This document shows positions 1,757-10,586 of a stretch of DNA of 64,000 bases, in pieces. The DNA comes from Bacteroidales bacterium. GTDB taxonomy: Bacteria; Bacteroidota; Bacteroidia; Bacteroidales; ML635J-15. The notes beneath the pieces are model-generated. The model did not search any database and had not been told where the DNA came from. It saw nothing but the letters and a program-made list of their open reading frames with translations. Positions within the stretch are counted from its first letter, which is position 1. The number at the start of each line of letters is the position of its first letter. The stretch lies in NCBI GenBank assembly GCA_003249955.1, contig QKHS01000010.1:1-64000 (forward strand). Reading direction: 5' to 3'. Both the position numbers and the translations under genes were made by a program.

Positions 1757-3946
1757 TTAATTCCCCAATTCCAACTGATTTTTTACCAATTCATAATATG
1801 CTCCTTTTATTGCTGTTAATTGTTCATGTGTGCCTGTTTCCACTATTTCTCCTTTTTCTATTACTACAATCTGGTCGGCATGTTTTACTGTACTAAGCCT
1901 GTGAGCAACAACAACCACTGTTCGTCCCCTGAAAAACTGATTAAGATTGTCCATAATCTTTCTTTCATTGTTTGCATCCAGAGAATTTGTAGCCTCATCG
2001 AAAAACAAATAATGAGGATTTTTATATACTGCTCTTGCAATAAGAATTCTCTGTTTTTGCCCCTGACTTAAGCCATTCCCTTCACTGCCGATTTTTGTAT
2101 TGTATCCAAGTGGCAAACCTTCGATAAAATCCTGAATATTAGCAACTTTAACAGCTTCCTTTAGTCTTTCCGCATCTATATTCTCTGCCCCTACTGCTAT
2201 GTTTTTTGCAATACTGTCGTTAAAAATAAATCCTTCCTGCATAACTGCCCCAACCTGACTACGCCACCAACTCTGAGAAAAGTTAGTTAAAGGATTTTCA
2301 CCGACAAGTATCTGCCCGCTGTTTAACTCATAAAAACCAAGCATAAGCTTAACCATGGTTGTTTTTCCGCTACCGCTTGTGCCGACAATTGCAGTAATCT
2401 TATTTTCAGGTATTTCCAGACTTACTTTTTTCAAAACCATCTCACCGTGAGGCTTGTCGTACTGAAACTCAACGTCCTGAATTCTAATTGATTTATCGTT
2501 GGGCAGAACTGCAACTTTCTGTTCTTCTATATTTTCTTCATCTGCCTGATTATGAATCTCGCCCAAACGTTCAAGACTTATTTTTGCATCCTGCCACGAC
2601 TGTATAAAACCAATAAACTGGGTAATAGGGGAATTTAACTGCCCGATAATATATTGAACGGCAATCATCATCCCGAGTGTCATGTTTCCTGTTATTACAG
2701 AGTAGGCAGCCAGAAAAGAAATAACCAGATTTTTGCTTTCATTTATAAAAACAGTCCCCAGATTTTGATACTGGCTTAAAGCCAGGCCTTTTATGCTTAT
2801 TTTAAACAAACGAACCTGTATTCTTTCCCAGTCCCAGCGCATTTGTTTCTCGGCATTCTGCAGTTTTATTTCCTGCATACCCTGAATAAGCTGTATTTTA
2901 TTGCTTTGTTCGGCAGAAGCTTCGCGGAACCTTTTAAAATCCAGTTCACGGCGTTTTTTCATAAACAGATAAATCCAGCCTATATACAAAGCTGAACCAA
3001 TTAAAAACACGACAAAAATTATCAGTGAATAATATGCTAAAACCGCCCCGAAAATAATAAGATTTACAAAAGAGAATATCGTGCTGAGGCTTTGTCCTGT
3101 TAAAAAACTTTCGATACGGTTATGATCCCCGATTCGCTGCATTAAATCACCGGTCATTTTTGTATCGAAAAACCCGATTGGCAATTTCATAAGCTTTATA
3201 AGGAAATCGGAAATAAGAGAAATATTTATTCTTGTGCTTATATGCAGCATTATCCATGAACGGATAAAGTCAACCGACATGCGGCTTACAAATAAAACCA
3301 TCTGTGCAATCAGTACCAAAGTGATAAACGACAGGTTATTGTTTGCAATACCATAATCGACAATGCTCTGGGTTAAAAACGGGAATATAAGTTGTATCAA
3401 ACTACCGAAAACCAGGCCGAGAACAAGCTGCCATATAAGCTTTCTGTGTGGTTTAAGATATTTAAACAGGAACCTGAATTTTGTTTTATCGGGCTTTTCG
3501 TCAGCCTGCTCATAAAAAGCGGGGGTAGGTTCCAAAAGCAAAGCAATTCCCTGATTTTCGCCGTTTTTGGTTGTGCTTATCCAATGCTCTGAAAACTCTT
3601 TTTGGGTGTAAGTAATTTTTGAAGATCCGGGATCGGCGACATAAACCTTGTTCTTATCAATTTTGTAAACAACTACAAAATGGTTCTGATTCCAGTGTGC
3701 AATAAAAGGCGTAACTTTTTCTTTTTCGAGATTTTCAAGCGTGGTCTTAACTCCCATTGTCCGCATGCCGATACTCTCGGCAGCATCGCTTATTCCCAGT
3801 AACGAAACTCCTTCACGGGTAATGTATGAACGCTGACGTAATGTTTGCGCAGTGTATGATTTGCCATAGTATTTTGCAATCATACGTAGGCAGGTTGCCC
3901 CGCAATCCATAGCGTCGGGTTGGGAATAATGAGGAAAATTATTCAT
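1757..3946 (-). CDS. Peptidase-domain (C39, double-glycine) ABC transporter, bacteriocin/RiPP exporter
   Basis: N-term QPDAMDCGATCLRMIAKYYGK (C39 Cys), HWNQNHFVVVYKI, TM domain, Walker A GTSGSGKTT, signature LSQGQKQR. Confidence 0.93.
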   Translation of the reverse strand: MNNFPHYSQPDAMDCGATCLRMIAKYYGKSYTAQTLRQRSYITREGVSLLGISDAAESIGMRTMGVKTTLENLEKEKVTPFIAHWNQNHFVVVYKIDKNKVYVADPGSSKITYTQKEFSEHWISTTKNGENQGIALLLEPTPAFYEQADEKPDKTKFRFLFKYLKPHRKLIWQLVLGLVFGSLIQLIFPFLTQSIVDYGIANNNLSFITLVLIAQMVLFVSRMSVDFIRSWIMLHISTRINISLISDFLIKLMKLPIGFFDTKMTGDLMQRIGDHNRIESFLTGQSLSTIFSFVNLIIFGAVLAYYSLIIFVVFLIGSALYIGWIYLFMKKRRELDFKRFREASAEQSNKIQLIQGMQEIKLQNAEKQMRWDWERIQVRLFKISIKGLALSQYQNLGTVFINESKNLVISFLAAYSVITGNMTLGMMIAVQYIIGQLNSPITQFIGFIQSWQDAKISLERLGEIHNQADEENIEEQKVAVLPNDKSIRIQDVEFQYDKPHGEMVLKKVSLEIPENKITAIVGTSGSGKTTMVKLMLGFYELNSGQILVGENPLTNFSQSWWRSQVGAVMQEGFIFNDSIAKNIAVGAENIDAERLKEAVKVANIQDFIEGLPLGYNTKIGSEGNGLSQGQKQRILIARAVYKNPHYLFFDEATNSLDANNERKIMDNLNQFFRGRTVVVVAHRLSTVKHADQIVVIEKGEIVETGTHEQLTAIKGAYYELVKNQLELGN

Positions 3947-5075
3947 TATTTACCAAAAACTTTTTATTCATATCTCTTATTTCAATCGCCTGTTCTTCCC
4001 ATCCCGGATTCTCTACGCGCCATTGCTCAACACTTATCCAACCGGTCTGGTTTTGCCATTTTGCAATATATGGATTATACCCGCATTTTGCCGGCTGTGA
4101 ATAAATGTTTTCCGTATCTTTTATAAATGCCCTGCAATCTGTACATATATGTCTGAATTCACAATCCTGACACACATCTATATCGTCCTTTTTTATAAAC
4201 CACCAATCTTTAAATCCGGGTTTTTCTATTGCTTCGGCAAGTGTTGTGTCCGAAATATGCCCGTAATTGTGTTTCATCGACGGACAATTTTTTATAAATC
4301 CGTCTGAATCAATACAGATTTTGCGGTTAAGACAGGTATTGTGAAGTTGTGATTCGGTGAAATGATCGACTGACATAGAAAAAAACTTAGTATCTACATA
4401 CCCGCATGTTGATTCCGGATTAAAAGCATTAGTTGTAAAATTGATAAATGCCACCTGATCATCTAAATCAACCTTCCTGTTTTCAGGTGAACTAAAAACA
4501 GTAACATTGTCTGTTTTGGGGTAAGTTCTGACAAGATTGGAAACAGACTCAAAATCACCAAACACATCAAAAGCTAAAAATATACTTAAAGTATGAAATG
4601 ACTTACTATAAGCCAACTTTACCAACTCTGTTATTTTATCCCTGTCACAAATTCCTTTAAAAAATCTTAGCTGAAGATGAAAGCAGTAAATATTATCCAG
4701 AGATTCCAATAATTTCGGGTAGTCGGTAGTATTAAAATCTGAAATATCTATAATTGCATTACTTATTACGGACGGGAAATCCCATTCCGGACTAAAATCA
4801 GGGAAAAGTTTGGTTTCATATTTTTCACCAAAATAAGCGTACCTGTTTATTTGCATGAAATCAAAATAGTCAATCAGAATTTTTTCGTGTTCTTTTCCAT
4901 AAAAGTCAATAATATCATTTATTTTCCAATACTTATGTTTTAACATAATCTCAGATAAAGAGTTTGGAATAAAATCTACCTCTGACAACTGAAAATCAAT
5001 TATGGTTGACCTGCAATAGCCAAAAGTTTTAAGGCAACTGCTTATTGGTATTAAATAAGTTTCCCCGTTTATCAT
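3939..5075 (-). CDS. Grasp-with-spasm-type SPASM-domain peptide maturase
   Basis: C-terminal CLNRKICIDSDGFIKNC...CQDCEFRHICTDC cysteine pattern; no CxxxCxxC radical-SAM motif; adjacent to ATP-grasp. Start at 5075 (MINGETYLIPISSC) preferred over 5162. Confidence 0.8.
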   Translation of the reverse strand: MINGETYLIPISSCLKTFGYCRSTIIDFQLSEVDFIPNSLSEIMLKHKYWKINDIIDFYGKEHEKILIDYFDFMQINRYAYFGEKYETKLFPDFSPEWDFPSVISNAIIDISDFNTTDYPKLLESLDNIYCFHLQLRFFKGICDRDKITELVKLAYSKSFHTLSIFLAFDVFGDFESVSNLVRTYPKTDNVTVFSSPENRKVDLDDQVAFINFTTNAFNPESTCGYVDTKFFSMSVDHFTESQLHNTCLNRKICIDSDGFIKNCPSMKHNYGHISDTTLAEAIEKPGFKDWWFIKKDDIDVCQDCEFRHICTDCRAFIKDTENIYSQPAKCGYNPYIAKWQNQTGWISVEQWRVENPGWEEQAIEIRDMNKKFLVNNE

Positions 5076-5076
5076 G

Positions 5077-5265
5077 TTAAAAAAATCTTGATATTGGTTT
5101 GTAAAAAGACCTGTAAAATGATTTTGGATTTTGCAGGTTGGGTTTTGGGACAGATAGAGCATCCCTCATCTCAATAACTCTTGATATTTCGTGTTTTTCA
5201 ACCTTTATATCATGATAGTTAAAGGGGAAATGCTCTTTTATTTTAACCAGATATATTTCTTCCAT
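5077..5265 (-). CDS. Candidate small 62-aa ORF fitted between ATP-grasp and SPASM genes
   Basis: MEEIYLVKIKEHFPFNYHDIKVEKHEISRVIEMRDALS...; overlaps end of upstream gene by 23 nt, and its TAA is 1 nt from the preferred ATG of the SPASM gene. Confidence 0.45.
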   Translation of the reverse strand: MEEIYLVKIKEHFPFNYHDIKVEKHEISRVIEMRDALSVPKPNLQNPKSFYRSFYKPISRFF

Positions 5266-6226
5266 TTATAAGTGTTTTTGCAATTTCTTTTTCGATATAA
5301 AAATTATTTTTCCCGCTTAAAAAATCAAACTGCCCAACAGGATTCACTTCGAGAAACCAGTAATCATTATTTTTATCAACTATAACATCCATTGATCCGC
5401 TTTCAAGTTTCATATCCTGCATAAAAACATGTAGTTTTTCTTTAATTTTCAGTGGTAAATTAAAGGGAACATGCCTGTTTTTCCTGTTAGTATTCCTAAT
5501 ATCAGTCTCATTAGAATCGCATGGTGGCAAGGCTGCCGATGCATAAAACTCTCCCAGCAGATAAAATATTCTTAACTCATATTTTTTATCAATCTTATTT
5601 TGAAATAAGGAATATAAAAAACTGTCAGAATCTGATGAATCAATGTTTACATCCATTGTTCCATGTCCAAAGGTGTAATTACTGTCGTAATAGTTAAGAT
5701 TGTCCTGAATATTTTTTGTTATGCATTCACCTTTACTCTCAATAAACGAAAGAAGTTCGTCGCGGGCTTGGGTTATAATAGTTTCAGGAACCCTTAGTCC
5801 TGCTTTTTGTGCTTTAAATAATGCTATCAGCTTGTTAGAATTGTAATGACCCGGATTATTGATATGCTGTTTTGTATCAATGATAAAATTAAAATAATTG
5901 TTTAGGGTTTCAATCTCATTTGAAAGGTGTTGGTTAACTTTTAACGCGATATTATTTGTTCTCAGGTTAAGAGAAGATTCGCCCGGAACGCCAAAAACGG
6001 GATAGCCCCGGCGGCACCATATATAGTCAAAATCTTCCAGGTCAAAAGTATAATCGTTTATCTTTAGTTGTAGCCTTGTTTCACTATCGGTAAACACGAC
6101 ATTCCAAACCAAATCCAGATTATTATCGAAATTATTTATCCTGACAAACTTCTTGTTGTAATAGTTCAACCATGAACAGACTTTGTCTGTGGAAGGATCT
6201 TCCATTTCTCCAACTATTAGTATCAT
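5243..6226 (-). CDS. Grasp-with-spasm-type ATP-grasp peptide ligase
   Basis: ATP-grasp features: KKYELRIFYLLGEFYASA, SGSMDVIVDKNNDYWFLEVNPVGQFDFLS. Confidence 0.85.
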   Translation of the reverse strand: MILIVGEMEDPSTDKVCSWLNYYNKKFVRINNFDNNLDLVWNVVFTDSETRLQLKINDYTFDLEDFDYIWCRRGYPVFGVPGESSLNLRTNNIALKVNQHLSNEIETLNNYFNFIIDTKQHINNPGHYNSNKLIALFKAQKAGLRVPETIITQARDELLSFIESKGECITKNIQDNLNYYDSNYTFGHGTMDVNIDSSDSDSFLYSLFQNKIDKKYELRIFYLLGEFYASAALPPCDSNETDIRNTNRKNRHVPFNLPLKIKEKLHVFMQDMKLESGSMDVIVDKNNDYWFLEVNPVGQFDFLSGKNNFYIEKEIAKTLINGRNISG

Positions 6227-6246
6227 CGTAAAAAGATTGTATCAAT

Positions 6247-7383
6247 TCAGTTTTTTTGTGAATTCCATTCTCTCGCCTTACGTATTATTTCCTTTTCCTG
6301 TTCGTCATTCCTGAAGAATAACAATGTCTTACTTTTCCGTCTGTTTACGTAATCAAGAACAATTGGATAATACTGATCTTCGGGCATGTATAATTGAGTA
6401 GCTAAAGAGTTAAAAACAAAACCATAGCTTGAATTTTTAACAGACCAATCAATCTTTTTCATTTGGTTCTGATATTTATCGAGATAAATACATTTTCTTA
6501 ATTTATTTATTTCCGTTAATGCTTTCCTGTCATATCTTTCAACCCAAAAGAATTTGCCATTAATATAAAAGCCATTCTCTTGCAGCGGATACTTATCATC
6601 ATATTTATACCCCATCGGTTTTAAAACGGAAGTAAACAACCTTACGTCAAAATACCCTTGCATTACAGATTCGAGTAACAATGGCAGTATTTCTTTTCTT
6701 TCAGGATTATGAAGGAATATTGTTAATATTTTACGCCAGTTTTCGTAACCACCATATATTTCCTCCGAAATAAAGCCACGTTCTTCGATCAATTTTACCA
6801 AATGAAAATAATTAACCGAATCAATATATTTTATTGTATCATTATAGTTATCATTATATATTATGTCGTTATTTTCTTTTCGGCTTTTCTCCCTTATTGC
6901 CTGATCTTTAGCAACTATGTCTTCAATTTGACGGACAAATGCTGTGTCGCTTACCATTTTTACCGAATCCAGAATTTCTTTAATCTCCGGAATTAATATC
7001 AGGTTTTTATATAAGTCATACGACTCAAAGAAATCTTTCCCTACATTTTTACGCATAAGATTTTCAACACAATAGATTAATCTTGAAGTATCGGGAGTAA
7101 GAGACAATAACTCACAATCTAATGCGTAAAACAAATCTTTCTGAAATGGTATCTTACAATAATTAAATGCTTTAAAATATTTATCTGCAGCTTTATCAAA
7201 ATTATTTTTTGTTATTTCCCGTTCTGCATCAAATATTAAAGCATAATATTCAGAAACGGAATCGTACCTGACCGAATTAATTATCAAACTATCCAGGTCT
7301 GTTACTGTTTTGTTTTGTGTTTTTCCATAATAACTCACAAACATTAATGTAACTAAAAAAAATACCCTAATTATAAATCTCAT
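6247..7383 (-). CDS. Secreted hypothetical protein in RiPP locus
   Basis: 378-aa ORF with signal peptide MRFIIRVFFLVTLMFVSYYGKTQ, between precursor and ATP-grasp genes. Confidence 0.7.
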   Translation of the reverse strand: MRFIIRVFFLVTLMFVSYYGKTQNKTVTDLDSLIINSVRYDSVSEYYALIFDAEREITKNNFDKAADKYFKAFNYCKIPFQKDLFYALDCELLSLTPDTSRLIYCVENLMRKNVGKDFFESYDLYKNLILIPEIKEILDSVKMVSDTAFVRQIEDIVAKDQAIREKSRKENNDIIYNDNYNDTIKYIDSVNYFHLVKLIEERGFISEEIYGGYENWRKILTIFLHNPERKEILPLLLESVMQGYFDVRLFTSVLKPMGYKYDDKYPLQENGFYINGKFFWVERYDRKALTEINKLRKCIYLDKYQNQMKKIDWSVKNSSYGFVFNSLATQLYMPEDQYYPIVLDYVNRRKSKTLLFFRNDEQEKEIIRKAREWNSQKN

Positions 7384-7463
7384 AATTTATTTAAATAAAA
7401 ATCATCACTCGTGTATTTTTGAATTACACAAGTGATGTAAATTTAATCATATTATCACTCTCT

Positions 7464-7703
7464 TTATTTTATAAAATTTAGCATCTGCTCTTCAGTGATA
7501 TCTCCATCTCTTACAATAACATACTCATTTTCAGTATCTCTTGGCCCTGTGTTACGAAAATAGTCTGTAGACCATTGAATAGGATAATTTTTATCCGGGG
7601 CTCCGGTTTCGTTCCAACCAGGAACTTCTCCGCCAATAAGTTTGCCCAATTCACTTCTTTCGATTTTCTCGAATTTTTCTTCATTTAATTTTTCGAAATT
7701 CAT
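7464..7703 (-). CDS. Putative RiPP precursor peptide with GG leader
   Basis: 79 aa: MNFEKLNEEKFEKIERSELGKLIGGEVPGWNETGAPDKNYPIQWSTDYF...; charged leader ending in GG, core rich in T/S and D/E; next to ATP-grasp, SPASM and C39 exporter. Confidence 0.8.
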   Translation of the reverse strand: MNFEKLNEEKFEKIERSELGKLIGGEVPGWNETGAPDKNYPIQWSTDYFRNTGPRDTENEYVIVRDGDITEEQMLNFIK

Positions 7704-7719
7704 AATAAATAATTTTTAA

Positions 7720-7824
7720 TTAGACATTTTGTGAATTATCACATGTCAAATTTAAAAACTGCCACTGCCAAATAATGTCAGTAGAAAAAATATTAAAAAA
7801 GAAACCACCTTTTGTATTTTTAAA
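7720..7824 (-). pseudogene. Relic of the C-terminal tail of the neighbouring HTH gene
   Basis: Minus-strand translation KNTKGGFFFNIFSTDIIWQWQFLNLTCDNSQNV* aligns without gaps to KNVKGGFSQNILYADKIRQWQVFDLTSDNTENA* of 8965..9321 (18/33 identical by hand count); no start codon, in-frame TAG just upstream. Confidence 0.75.
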
Positions 7825-7901
7825 CCCTGTGGCTCTCTAATTTTATGTGAGTTTTTTTTCGTACATACTTTCAGTTTCTTCTTAATTTTCTATTTCAGAC
7901 A

Positions 7902-8870
7902 TTAGTCTGTTTTAATGCAACGAACATTATATCTCAACAGTTTATTACCATCAAAAATCCGGCATCCCCTTTGGTTTTTGTAAACATATAAAATGTAGGC
8001 TTTATTAGCTATCTCCGGATTTGTAAACCATATTCCTGAGGTTGCACCAAAAAAATGAAACATTTCTGATCCTATGGGATCACAATAACCACCTAATTTA
8101 ATATTCAATCCAACATTTTTATCATCTGTTAAATAATCATATAATTCTAACGGTCCTTTTTGGTAATTTGCCATTAGTAAGTTAATATCATTTAAAGTCG
8201 GGAGCTTCCATCCGGGCGGGCAGGCATTTAATGCAATATCATAGTCATAATATCTGCCATATTCTTTAACCATCACTTCTTTTTTGTAATAACATGAACT
8301 CCCGGTTTCGGTCTCATATCTTAAATTTTCGCCCATCCAGCATTGATTCCCGATCTGCACTGTACTATATGCTTCATTATCTCTTTCATCGTAAAGTGTA
8401 CATCCGCAATCCAGGGGTAAAGTATAAGCTTCTGCCTGCAATACCTCCGAGACGGCACTATCGTTAAATGCCCAGATAAACAACTTATATTTCTTATTAC
8501 TTGCCAGTTTTAACTGGCGAAAACAGGTATCATTATAAAGATTTTCAGCAGTTTTAAAATCATTAACAAAATTAATTTTATAGCCTTTGGCTTTATCAAC
8601 ACGGCTCCACGACCATTCTATGCTGTTACAGGCACATTTTGTTTCTGTTCTAACCGGCCTTGATAGTATAGTATCTGCAAAAACAGAATCCTCAGAATAT
8701 TTAATACCCGGGTGTTTAGCGGTTCCGGAATTAGTGTATTCATTACCTCCTTCAATAAAACCGACGTAATTATCCTGATTTAACAAAACAAACAGTCCTG
8801 TATTGATATCCCGGCTTTTTACAGTCATAACAAACAATAGAAGACTAATCAAAATTAAATTTCTTTTCAT
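7902..8870 (-). CDS. FISUMP (Fibrobacter succinogenes major paralogous) domain protein
   Basis: CWMGENLRYETETGSSCYYKKE...YGRYYDYDIALNACPPGWKLPTLNDINLLM typical FISUMP motif; signal peptide. Confidence 0.8.
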   Translation of the reverse strand: MKRNLILISLLLFVMTVKSRDINTGLFVLLNQDNYVGFIEGGNEYTNSGTAKHPGIKYSEDSVFADTILSRPVRTETKCACNSIEWSWSRVDKAKGYKINFVNDFKTAENLYNDTCFRQLKLASNKKYKLFIWAFNDSAVSEVLQAEAYTLPLDCGCTLYDERDNEAYSTVQIGNQCWMGENLRYETETGSSCYYKKEVMVKEYGRYYDYDIALNACPPGWKLPTLNDINLLMANYQKGPLELYDYLTDDKNVGLNIKLGGYCDPIGSEMFHFFGATSGIWFTNPEIANKAYILYVYKNQRGCRIFDGNKLLRYNVRCIKTD

Positions 8871-8964
8871 GGCATATTTCTTATTAATATAATGTATTAT
8901 TACTCAAATTATTTTAAAAAGCTCTTTAATTAAACTCAGATTCTTTGTTGCTGACTTAATTTCA

Positions 8965-9312
8965 TTAAGCATTTTCTGTATTATCACTTGTCAAATCAAA
9001 AACCTGCCATTGACGGATTTTATCAGCGTACAAAATATTTTGAGAAAATCCGCCTTTTACATTCTTAAGATCAATACTTTCTGCATTTTTCGGAAAGAAT
9101 TTAATTTTAAGACTTCCATCTATTTCATATTTATATGACCCGATATAACTATCGTAAACAACAGGACAGCCAATATCTTTTAAAGTTTGGATTATTCTAT
9201 ATATTTTTCTTTCAGAAACTTCAAGTTTTTCTGCAAATTTTTTAGGGGAACCGGTAGCCTTTAACCTTATAAGTTGGTCAACCCTTTCTAAAAGTTCTTT
9301 TCCTTCGGACAT
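8965..9312 (-). CDS. HTH-domain protein with GG-containing C-terminal tail
   Basis: MSEGKELLERVDQLIRLKATGSPKKFAEKLEVSERKIYRIIQTLKDIGCPVVYD (HTH_11-like) then DLKNVKGGFSQNILYADK... Confidence 0.75.
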   Translation of the reverse strand: MSEGKELLERVDQLIRLKATGSPKKFAEKLEVSERKIYRIIQTLKDIGCPVVYDSYIGSYKYEIDGSLKIKFFPKNAESIDLKNVKGGFSQNILYADKIRQWQVFDLTSDNTENA

Positions 9313-9681
9313 ATCAATCAAATATTTTTAATCATCCTGCATAAAACTTACCTCTTCTCTTCTCACTGCAATCTAATTCCATCTAACAGGACTCCTATCT
9401 CTTTTTTATTAAACAATCAACTTTCTTTATGTTTTATTTCAGTTATAACAGCACTAAAATGAATACACTACATTTAAAAACATATAAACGATAAAAATAA
9501 TATAAATATTTTATTATACAAACGATTTTTTATAAAATAATTACATACAAATTATGTCTTATACAAATAAATTTAAATTCTAACATATAAAAAGATATTT
9601 ACTAAATTATCCCATATTTTTATCATTTCAATTCTAAACACCATATATTCCGTAATTTGATAAAATATTAAAAGACTCTTT

Positions 9682-9867
9682 TTATTTTTTCATATTAACA
9701 CCTTTATAATAAACAACAGGACATCCCATATCTTTCATAGTTCTTATTATTCCGTACACCTTTCTTTCAGAAACTTCAGATTTTTCTGCAAATTCTTTAG
9801 GACAATCTGTTGCTCTCAAACGTATAAGCTGACCCACCCTTTCTAAAAGATCTTTTCCTTCTGCCAT
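9682..9867 (-). CDS. Truncated paralogue of the HTH protein (61 aa)
   Basis: MAEGKDLLERVGQLIRLRATDCPKEFAEKSEVSERKVYGIIRTMKDMGCPVVYY closely matches the N-terminus of 8965..9312, then ends. Confidence 0.6.
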   Translation of the reverse strand: MAEGKDLLERVGQLIRLRATDCPKEFAEKSEVSERKVYGIIRTMKDMGCPVVYYKGVNMKK

Positions 9868-10003
9868 AGTTATTTTAATCTCTTTTGTTTTACAAAAAAC
9901 ATCATACTATAAAAATACAACAAAATTAAACCGGCAGTAAAATTACAATAAAAATATCACATTTATTACATTATTTTTATTTATTTTGTTGCAATAAAGC
10001 AAT

Positions 10004-10168
10004 AAAAAAAACGGCGTGGCTTATTGCCCACCGTTGCAGAGGCCCGGCCAGGAGCCCGAAGAACAGATATAGCAATGTCCACGCCTTAGCATGGCATTTG
10101 GCTTACTATCCTGTTCTTCTCTTTTAATCTGGCCGATTTGTGCAACAGAATTCAGCTAAACGCTGTTT
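10004..10168 (-). ncRNA. Candidate structured RNA (sRNA or 5' leader), minus strand
   Basis: Nested stems: AAACGGCG(10009)/CGCTGTTT(10161); GTTGCA(10033)/TGCAAC(10141); CGGCCAG(10045)/CTGGCCG(10129); GAAGAACAG(10058)/CTGTTCTTC(10111); hairpin CAGC/GCTG (10153-10165); A8 at 10004-10011 gives a U8 end on minus strand. No ORF. Confidence 0.55.
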
Positions 10169-10586
10169 ATTTTATTTACTTTTTATTTAGTTTTCGTTTA
10201 CTTTCTTAATAATTTTAAAATGTTATTTATTCTATATTGTAAAGATATGAACATTTTTTAAGCCTGCAAACATTAATTATTATAAATTATTCTTACATAT
10301 ATAATTATTAATAATAAAGCCTTAGTAAATCTGAGTTTTAACTCCGGACAGAATTCTTTGTAAAACTTAAATAATTTACTACAGTTTAAAATGCATTATC
10401 CAGGAGTTATGTTCGGTCTCATTCCAAACTACCCGAATATGTATTGATCTTTATCTGAACATTGTAAAAATCCGGATTCAGAAAGCGTTCCTGTTGCTGC
10501 CGGATTTCTGATTTTCTCTTTTTTTTCTTTTTTTTCTTTGTTTTAAAAATTTTACTAAATTTACCCCTTGTTTAAAAGCTGTTGTT

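Follow-up and report, generated by a model that had tools for sequence, protein, structure and literature searches.

A structured RNA on the minus strand

Upstream of a candidate RiPP locus, in a window of 64,000 nt (the whole stretch of Bacteroidales DNA that we analysed), lies a segment, 10004-10168, whose G+C content of ~0.5 stands out from flanks of 0.16-0.3. It raises the question of whether it specifies an RNA and, if so, whether that RNA acts on its own or on the genes that follow it. A first-pass annotation had called it a candidate for an unannotated structured RNA, GC-rich in AT-rich surroundings and built on the minus strand from a hairpin CAGC/GCTG, a rod, a GC-rich 3' hairpin and a U8 tract. 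The base composition is as claimed, every one of the named stems is found at its minus-strand place (Table 1), and the claim as a whole is borne out by the fold, by covariation and by the lack of an Rfam match. Read from 10168 to 10004, the segment has a minimum free energy of -69.2 kcal/mol, equalled by none of 200 shuffles and far more stable than chance predicts (z = -5.3). The strand of the RNA is not given by folding alone, because the plus strand of the same segment folds about equally well (z = -5.1). In the modelled helices of homologues, however, 319 G-U cells stand against 55 A-C cells, an excess that points to the minus strand, which we have therefore taken as the RNA strand. A peptide hidden in the segment was considered and rejected: among the 21 nearest relatives in the family, the longest open stretches occupy differing reading frames, with no frame in common.

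Table 1. Coordinates of the RNA, its promoter and the genes that follow it, in minus-strand order
Feature	Coordinates	Strand	Remarks
Bacteroidota-type promoter	10240..10270	-	-33 TTTG 10270-10267, 19 nt, -7 TATCTTTA 10247-10240
AT-rich 5' leader	10169..10232	-	placed from promoter position, between putative start site and first hairpin
H0, 5' hairpin CAGC-GTTTA-GCTG	10153..10165	-	most conserved family sequence, AGCGUU
P1 5' strand CTGTTGCA	10141..10148	-	partner 10038-10031
P2 5' strand CGGCCAG	10129..10135	-	partner 10051-10045; loop of possible hairpin H1
P3 5' strand GAAGAACAG	10111..10119	-	partner 10066-10058
Segment a, 5' arm of apical hairpin P4, AATGCCATGC	10089..10098	-	a-b covariation
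Segment b, 3' arm of P4, GGCGTGGACATT	10074..10085	-	partner a or d
P3 3' strand CTGTTCTTC	10058..10066	-	fold and covariation
P2 3' strand CTGGCCG (10051-10045) inside GGGCTC/GGGCCTC flanks	10039..10057	-	
P1 3' strand TGCAACGG	10031..10038	-	overlaps segment c
Segment c, ACGGTGG	10034-10028	-	local 5' arm of terminator hairpin
Segment d, GCCACGCCGT	10011..10020	-	partner b at long range, or c in the local hairpin
U8 tract	10004..10011	-	intrinsic-terminator-like end, from sequence
61-aa HTH_11-like gene	9682..9867	-	136 nt past U-tract
Second HTH gene	8965-9321	-	
FISUMP protein gene	within 1757..9321	-	listed between second HTH gene and possible precursor peptide
Possible precursor peptide	7464-7703	-	
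ATP-grasp gene	5243-6226	-	NCBIfam 224.1, just below cut-off 230
SPASM gene	3939-5162	-	NCBIfam 290, above cut-off 175
C39-peptidase ABC transporter	1757-3946	-	

A large family in the Bacteroidota

With the window sequence as query, a DNA search found no homologue in its own genus and family and no match among plasmid and phage sequences; in 394 genomes of the order it found about 13 clear homologues of 70-77% identity. Orthologues of a neighbouring 172-aa gene, used as a synteny anchor, were flanked by different genes. A single-sequence covariance model recovered distant copies within the genus, and a model built from 19 sequences (R2) found copies in 18 of the 31 genomes of the family, with up to 30 in one genome; the window's own genome has one. 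The wider searches returned copies in 159 of the 394 genomes sampled for the order and, at phylum level, in 43 of 398 (E ≤ 1e-4), and since few candidates per genome were scored in these, the copy numbers from them are lower bounds. Named members come from records of Bacteroides finegoldii, Phocaeicola massiliensis and Parabacteroides distasonis, some of them plasmid records of these gut species, and from Prevotella sp. oral taxon 299 and Chryseobacterium sp. As judged by sequence comparison, the window RNA is one copy of a large Bacteroidota RNA family, whose copies have covarying helices and lie upstream of same-strand genes.

The family is new to Rfam 15. Across 79 sources (the window and 78 loci from relatives) no gathering-level match fell on the RNA, and the window RNA matches no family, 6S-Flavo (RF01685) included, which has no match in the window and none in the whole of its own genome at E ≤ 1. 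We found no earlier description in Rfam and a library of open-access papers, with one possible exception: HMP2_1881, a 108 bp Bacteroidetes candidate RNA that is reported to lie near radical SAM domains and to be expressed in faecal samples (PMC8040213). The likeness is one of description, and copies of the present family also precede many other kinds of gene.

The DUF805 and DUF805b RNAs (RF03081, RF02914; 35 and 68 positions) are a Bacteroidota cis-regulatory RNA class, as the present family probably is, but have coordinates separate from those of the family described here. They occur shortly downstream of the RNA in 3 of 20 loci, never on it (L083:1327-1396; L122:1803-1871 and 2407-2475; L120:1674-1708), and in none of 40 further loci scanned with Rfam. 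In L120, the DUF805-class RNA begins six nt past the leader; it is possible that the two serve as tandem regulatory RNAs.

Core helices are maintained by covariation

In a MAFFT alignment of 19 sequences, with the structure taken from one of its rows, the covariation score was 0.470 against 0.186 after shuffling. Among 101 sequences, 90.4% of cells are paired against 59.8%, 38 of the 40 modelled pairs have changed on both sides and none of 500 shuffles did as well, figures that are inflated because the alignment was fitted to the model. When the two strands of each helix were compared with mismatched partners, own partners formed on average 9.0 bp against 4.95 for P1, 7.7 against 4.2 for P2, with both-side changes at all 8 pairs, 8.6 against 4.35 for P3, and 7.9 against 6.3 for the apical hairpin P4 (a-b), where the maximum of 2000 permutations was 6.8. 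Two control pairings of unrelated segments displayed no such gap. On inspection of the alignment, P2 can in most copies be read as a loop-loop contact between two hairpins (stems around GAAA/UUUC and GGU/ACC), and the GGGCTC and GGGCCTC that surround its 3' strand can form a small hairpin, H2.

Two conserved pairings compete for one strand

The first-pass annotation had also noted that GGCGTGG (10085-10079) is a 7-nt complement of CCACGCC (10019-10013) and had proposed that the two form either a pseudoknot or an alternative structure that would break the terminator-like hairpin. We confirm the complement, and recognize in it a selected alternative pairing that covaries across the family: a helix (b-d) that joins segment b of the apical hairpin to segment d, just ahead of the U-tract, is near-universal, and it lay outside the search model R2. 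The longest helix that b and d can form has a mean length of 8.5 bp (8.49) in 101 copies, as opposed to 6.6 bp (6.59) for mismatched partners, a difference reached in 0 of 2000 permutations, and where the helix ends, the first mismatch is G-U in 79 cases as against A-C in 6. The pairing is maintained through changes of sequence, as in TAGCGTGAT/ATCACGCTA and GCGGGCTTA/TAAGTCCGC; likewise, between the gut copies L237 and L242 it shifts from AGCGTGG/CCACGCT to AGCGTGA/TCACGCT.

Because both helices use segment b, a-b and b-d cannot be fully formed together. The family therefore has what a transcription-attenuating leader should have, namely two mutually exclusive, conserved pairings that share a strand and both covary. 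Mean energies in the family are -15.1 kcal/mol for b-d, -13.1 for P4 and -8.0 for the local tail fold. In the window, the 7-bp b-d helix (-15.3 kcal/mol) and the local tail hairpin (-16.1 kcal/mol) are about equal. A local intrinsic terminator, present in the window copy, is not found in every member: in several subfamilies the hairpin is weak or absent, the tail fold being near 0 in type 1 copies of genome G017 and averaging -3.4 in G108. At the 3' end of the family, 8.3 of the last 12 nt are T compared with 25% T in the flank, although the search model itself in part selects for a conserved U-tract; copies of the G006 type have a poor one.

Promoters and downstream genes

The -7 consensus of Bacteroidota-type promoters is TANNTTTG, from which the window box TATCTTTA differs by one mismatch. 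In the family, 39 of 79 copies have the consensus itself 35-80 nt ahead of their first hairpin (expected 2.6), with TTG farther upstream of it in 33 (expected 0.3). ORFs around the copies were called with a simple script and not a gene finder; a downstream ORF could be called for 77 copies and lies on the same strand in 74, mostly less than 100 nt from the RNA end, and upstream ORFs are split 43:23 by strand. The family thus has the promoter and the close same-strand gene of an attenuating leader; the window copy has them with one promoter mismatch and a gap of 136 nt.

The first downstream genes are usually accessory: T9SS-sorted and BspA-like surface proteins, lipoproteins, HTH genes at the head of RiPP clusters and, among defence genes, DndC, ZorA and methyltransferases. 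They suggest no single common signal. Two copies in G017, a related genome, stand at the heads of RiPP operons (L063 and L064), each followed by an HTH gene, a leader-like peptide or short ORF and an ATP-grasp-like ORF. Elsewhere in G017, the next ORF often belongs to a conserved family of small ORFs (MNK-IRNI...) and lies ~25 nt past the U-tract (L060, L205, L207, L210, L211, L216, L218, L220). Contig ends are 150-400 nt away from many of the copies in G017, G108, G046 and G204, and long flank stretches are repeated between copies in G108 and G017. Upstream of three Flavobacteriales copies (L228, L231, L232) is a similar-looking gene on the opposite strand, which we take to be a possible IS1595-type transposase.

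In the window, the next minus-strand gene is, as the first-pass annotation had it, the HTH gene at 9867. This and the second HTH gene are consecutive HTH_11-like paralogues, the first being without the C-terminal half of the second. By its predicted gene content, the same-strand run 1757..9321 is a RiPP locus of the grasp-with-spasm type, and HTH and RiPP genes may well form one operon. A sequence between the RNA and the HTH gene, TAATTTTG (9882-9927, minus strand), could be a second promoter. The link of the RNA to the RiPP operon is weaker in the window because the HTH gene lies 136 nt downstream and possibly has this promoter of its own; control of the operon by the RNA is nevertheless plausible and would match copies L063 and L064.

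A cis-acting leader is the probable reading

We argue that the RNA is probably a cis-acting 5' leader, one of a large Bacteroidota family, that sets read-through into the downstream operon. During transcription, the core of the leader would fold with a-b (P4) formed. Segment d, on emerging, would then invade P4 and create b-d beside the U-tract, aided in some subfamilies, the window included, by the local c-d hairpin, and polymerase would be released ahead of the gene. A signal favouring one state of the core, be it a small molecule, a protein or the folding rate, would set the extent of read-through, and in the window the operon so regulated would comprise the HTH and grasp-with-spasm RiPP genes. 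Termination, sensing and polarity are inferred parts of this scheme, and which way the switch works is a guess.

The first-pass suggestion of an attenuator leader thus stands as the best reading, given that the copies are directly followed by same-strand genes and that two of them head RiPP operons. Its terminator-like hairpin holds for a part of the family: since the local hairpin is weak or absent in several subfamilies, termination would there have to rest on the unusual long-range helix, or the 3' end acts otherwise. With attenuator leaders and riboswitches that carry an expression platform, the family has in common a promoter-proximal structured leader, alternative pairings on one strand and a U-tract before the gene. 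It differs from them in that its downstream genes are unrelated to each other, that it is not known to have a ligand or binding protein, and that some subfamilies pair the terminator arm with the apical hairpin instead of forming a local hairpin.

Alternative explanations

The promoter, and the U-tract as part of a terminator, would equally serve a stand-alone, trans-acting small RNA, to which the downstream genes were mere neighbours, and in the window the 136-nt gap and the possible second promoter are consistent with such an RNA. We nevertheless consider it unlikely. The regular position of the copies, 74 of 77 ahead of a same-strand gene and mostly within 100 nt of it, speaks against it, and nearly every helix varies freely in sequence between paralogues, as a conserved site for pairing in trans would not be expected to do.

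The abundance of the RNA could also reflect the spread of a mobile or duplicating promoter-leader cassette and not regulation. In G006 and G024, similarity between paralogues spans ~78 nt upstream, which takes in the promoter, to 35-77 nt downstream, with none beyond; leaders identical at 139 of 145 nt stand before different genes in Phocaeicola massiliensis and Parabacteroides distasonis (L238, L240); and members are found on plasmid records. Yet no transposase or terminal repeats are tied to the RNA, and covariation is strong, including that of the non-nested b-d helix, across sampled genomes that total hundreds of millions of bases, which argues for selection on the fold. Spread alone is therefore an improbable account, although cassette spread and leader function may both be true together. 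The genes behind L238 and L240 are a lipoprotein-like gene and a DUF4433 gene.

EAR and put RNAs are cis-acting leaders ahead of functionally unrelated operons, and a processive antitermination element of this kind, whose fold modifies RNA polymerase with no signal sensed, would fit a promoter-proximal RNA that precedes unrelated gene runs with no obvious ligand theme. Such a mechanism, however, needs no mutually exclusive a-b/b-d pairing beside a U-tract, and it is in this switch-type pairing that the family differs from EAR and put; in Rfam, neither yields a sequence or structure match to it. UpxY, a specialised paralogue of NusG, does not vary with the copy number of the RNA. As a trans factor it was rejected, the copy-rich genomes of the genus having low-scoring matches only, at the level of ordinary NusG, and members above the cut-off occurring mostly in genomes without RNA copies. 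We regard antitermination as quite doubtful. The window's own genome has two UpxY-type antiterminator genes above the cut-off beside its one leader copy.

A 6S-like RNA, as the first-pass annotation had wondered, is highly improbable, for although the long rod with internal loops recalls 6S-Flavo, a rod-like RNA of the same phylum, the family has no Rfam 6S match and, in place of a stand-alone gene in one or a few copies, presents a multi-copy (up to 30 per genome), promoter-proximal leader that heads a same-strand gene in 74 of 77 cases.

Implications

Returning to the cis-acting leader, if this reading is true, one RNA architecture would, within a single genome, control accessory genes that number in the dozens and are unrelated to each other, and would do so across a phylum. 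A bolder version, which we put forward tentatively, is that of a phylum-wide class of switch RNAs, in which the terminator arm is paired long-range to the apical hairpin and one common signal would gate phage defence, RiPPs and surface proteins. The phylum concerned dominates the human gut and is without several well-known RNA regulators, and the members on plasmid records of gut species make the RNA testable in culturable strains. Were the leader reading to hold, it would provide a shared handle on when the Bacteroidota turn on their defence systems, RiPPs and surface proteins.
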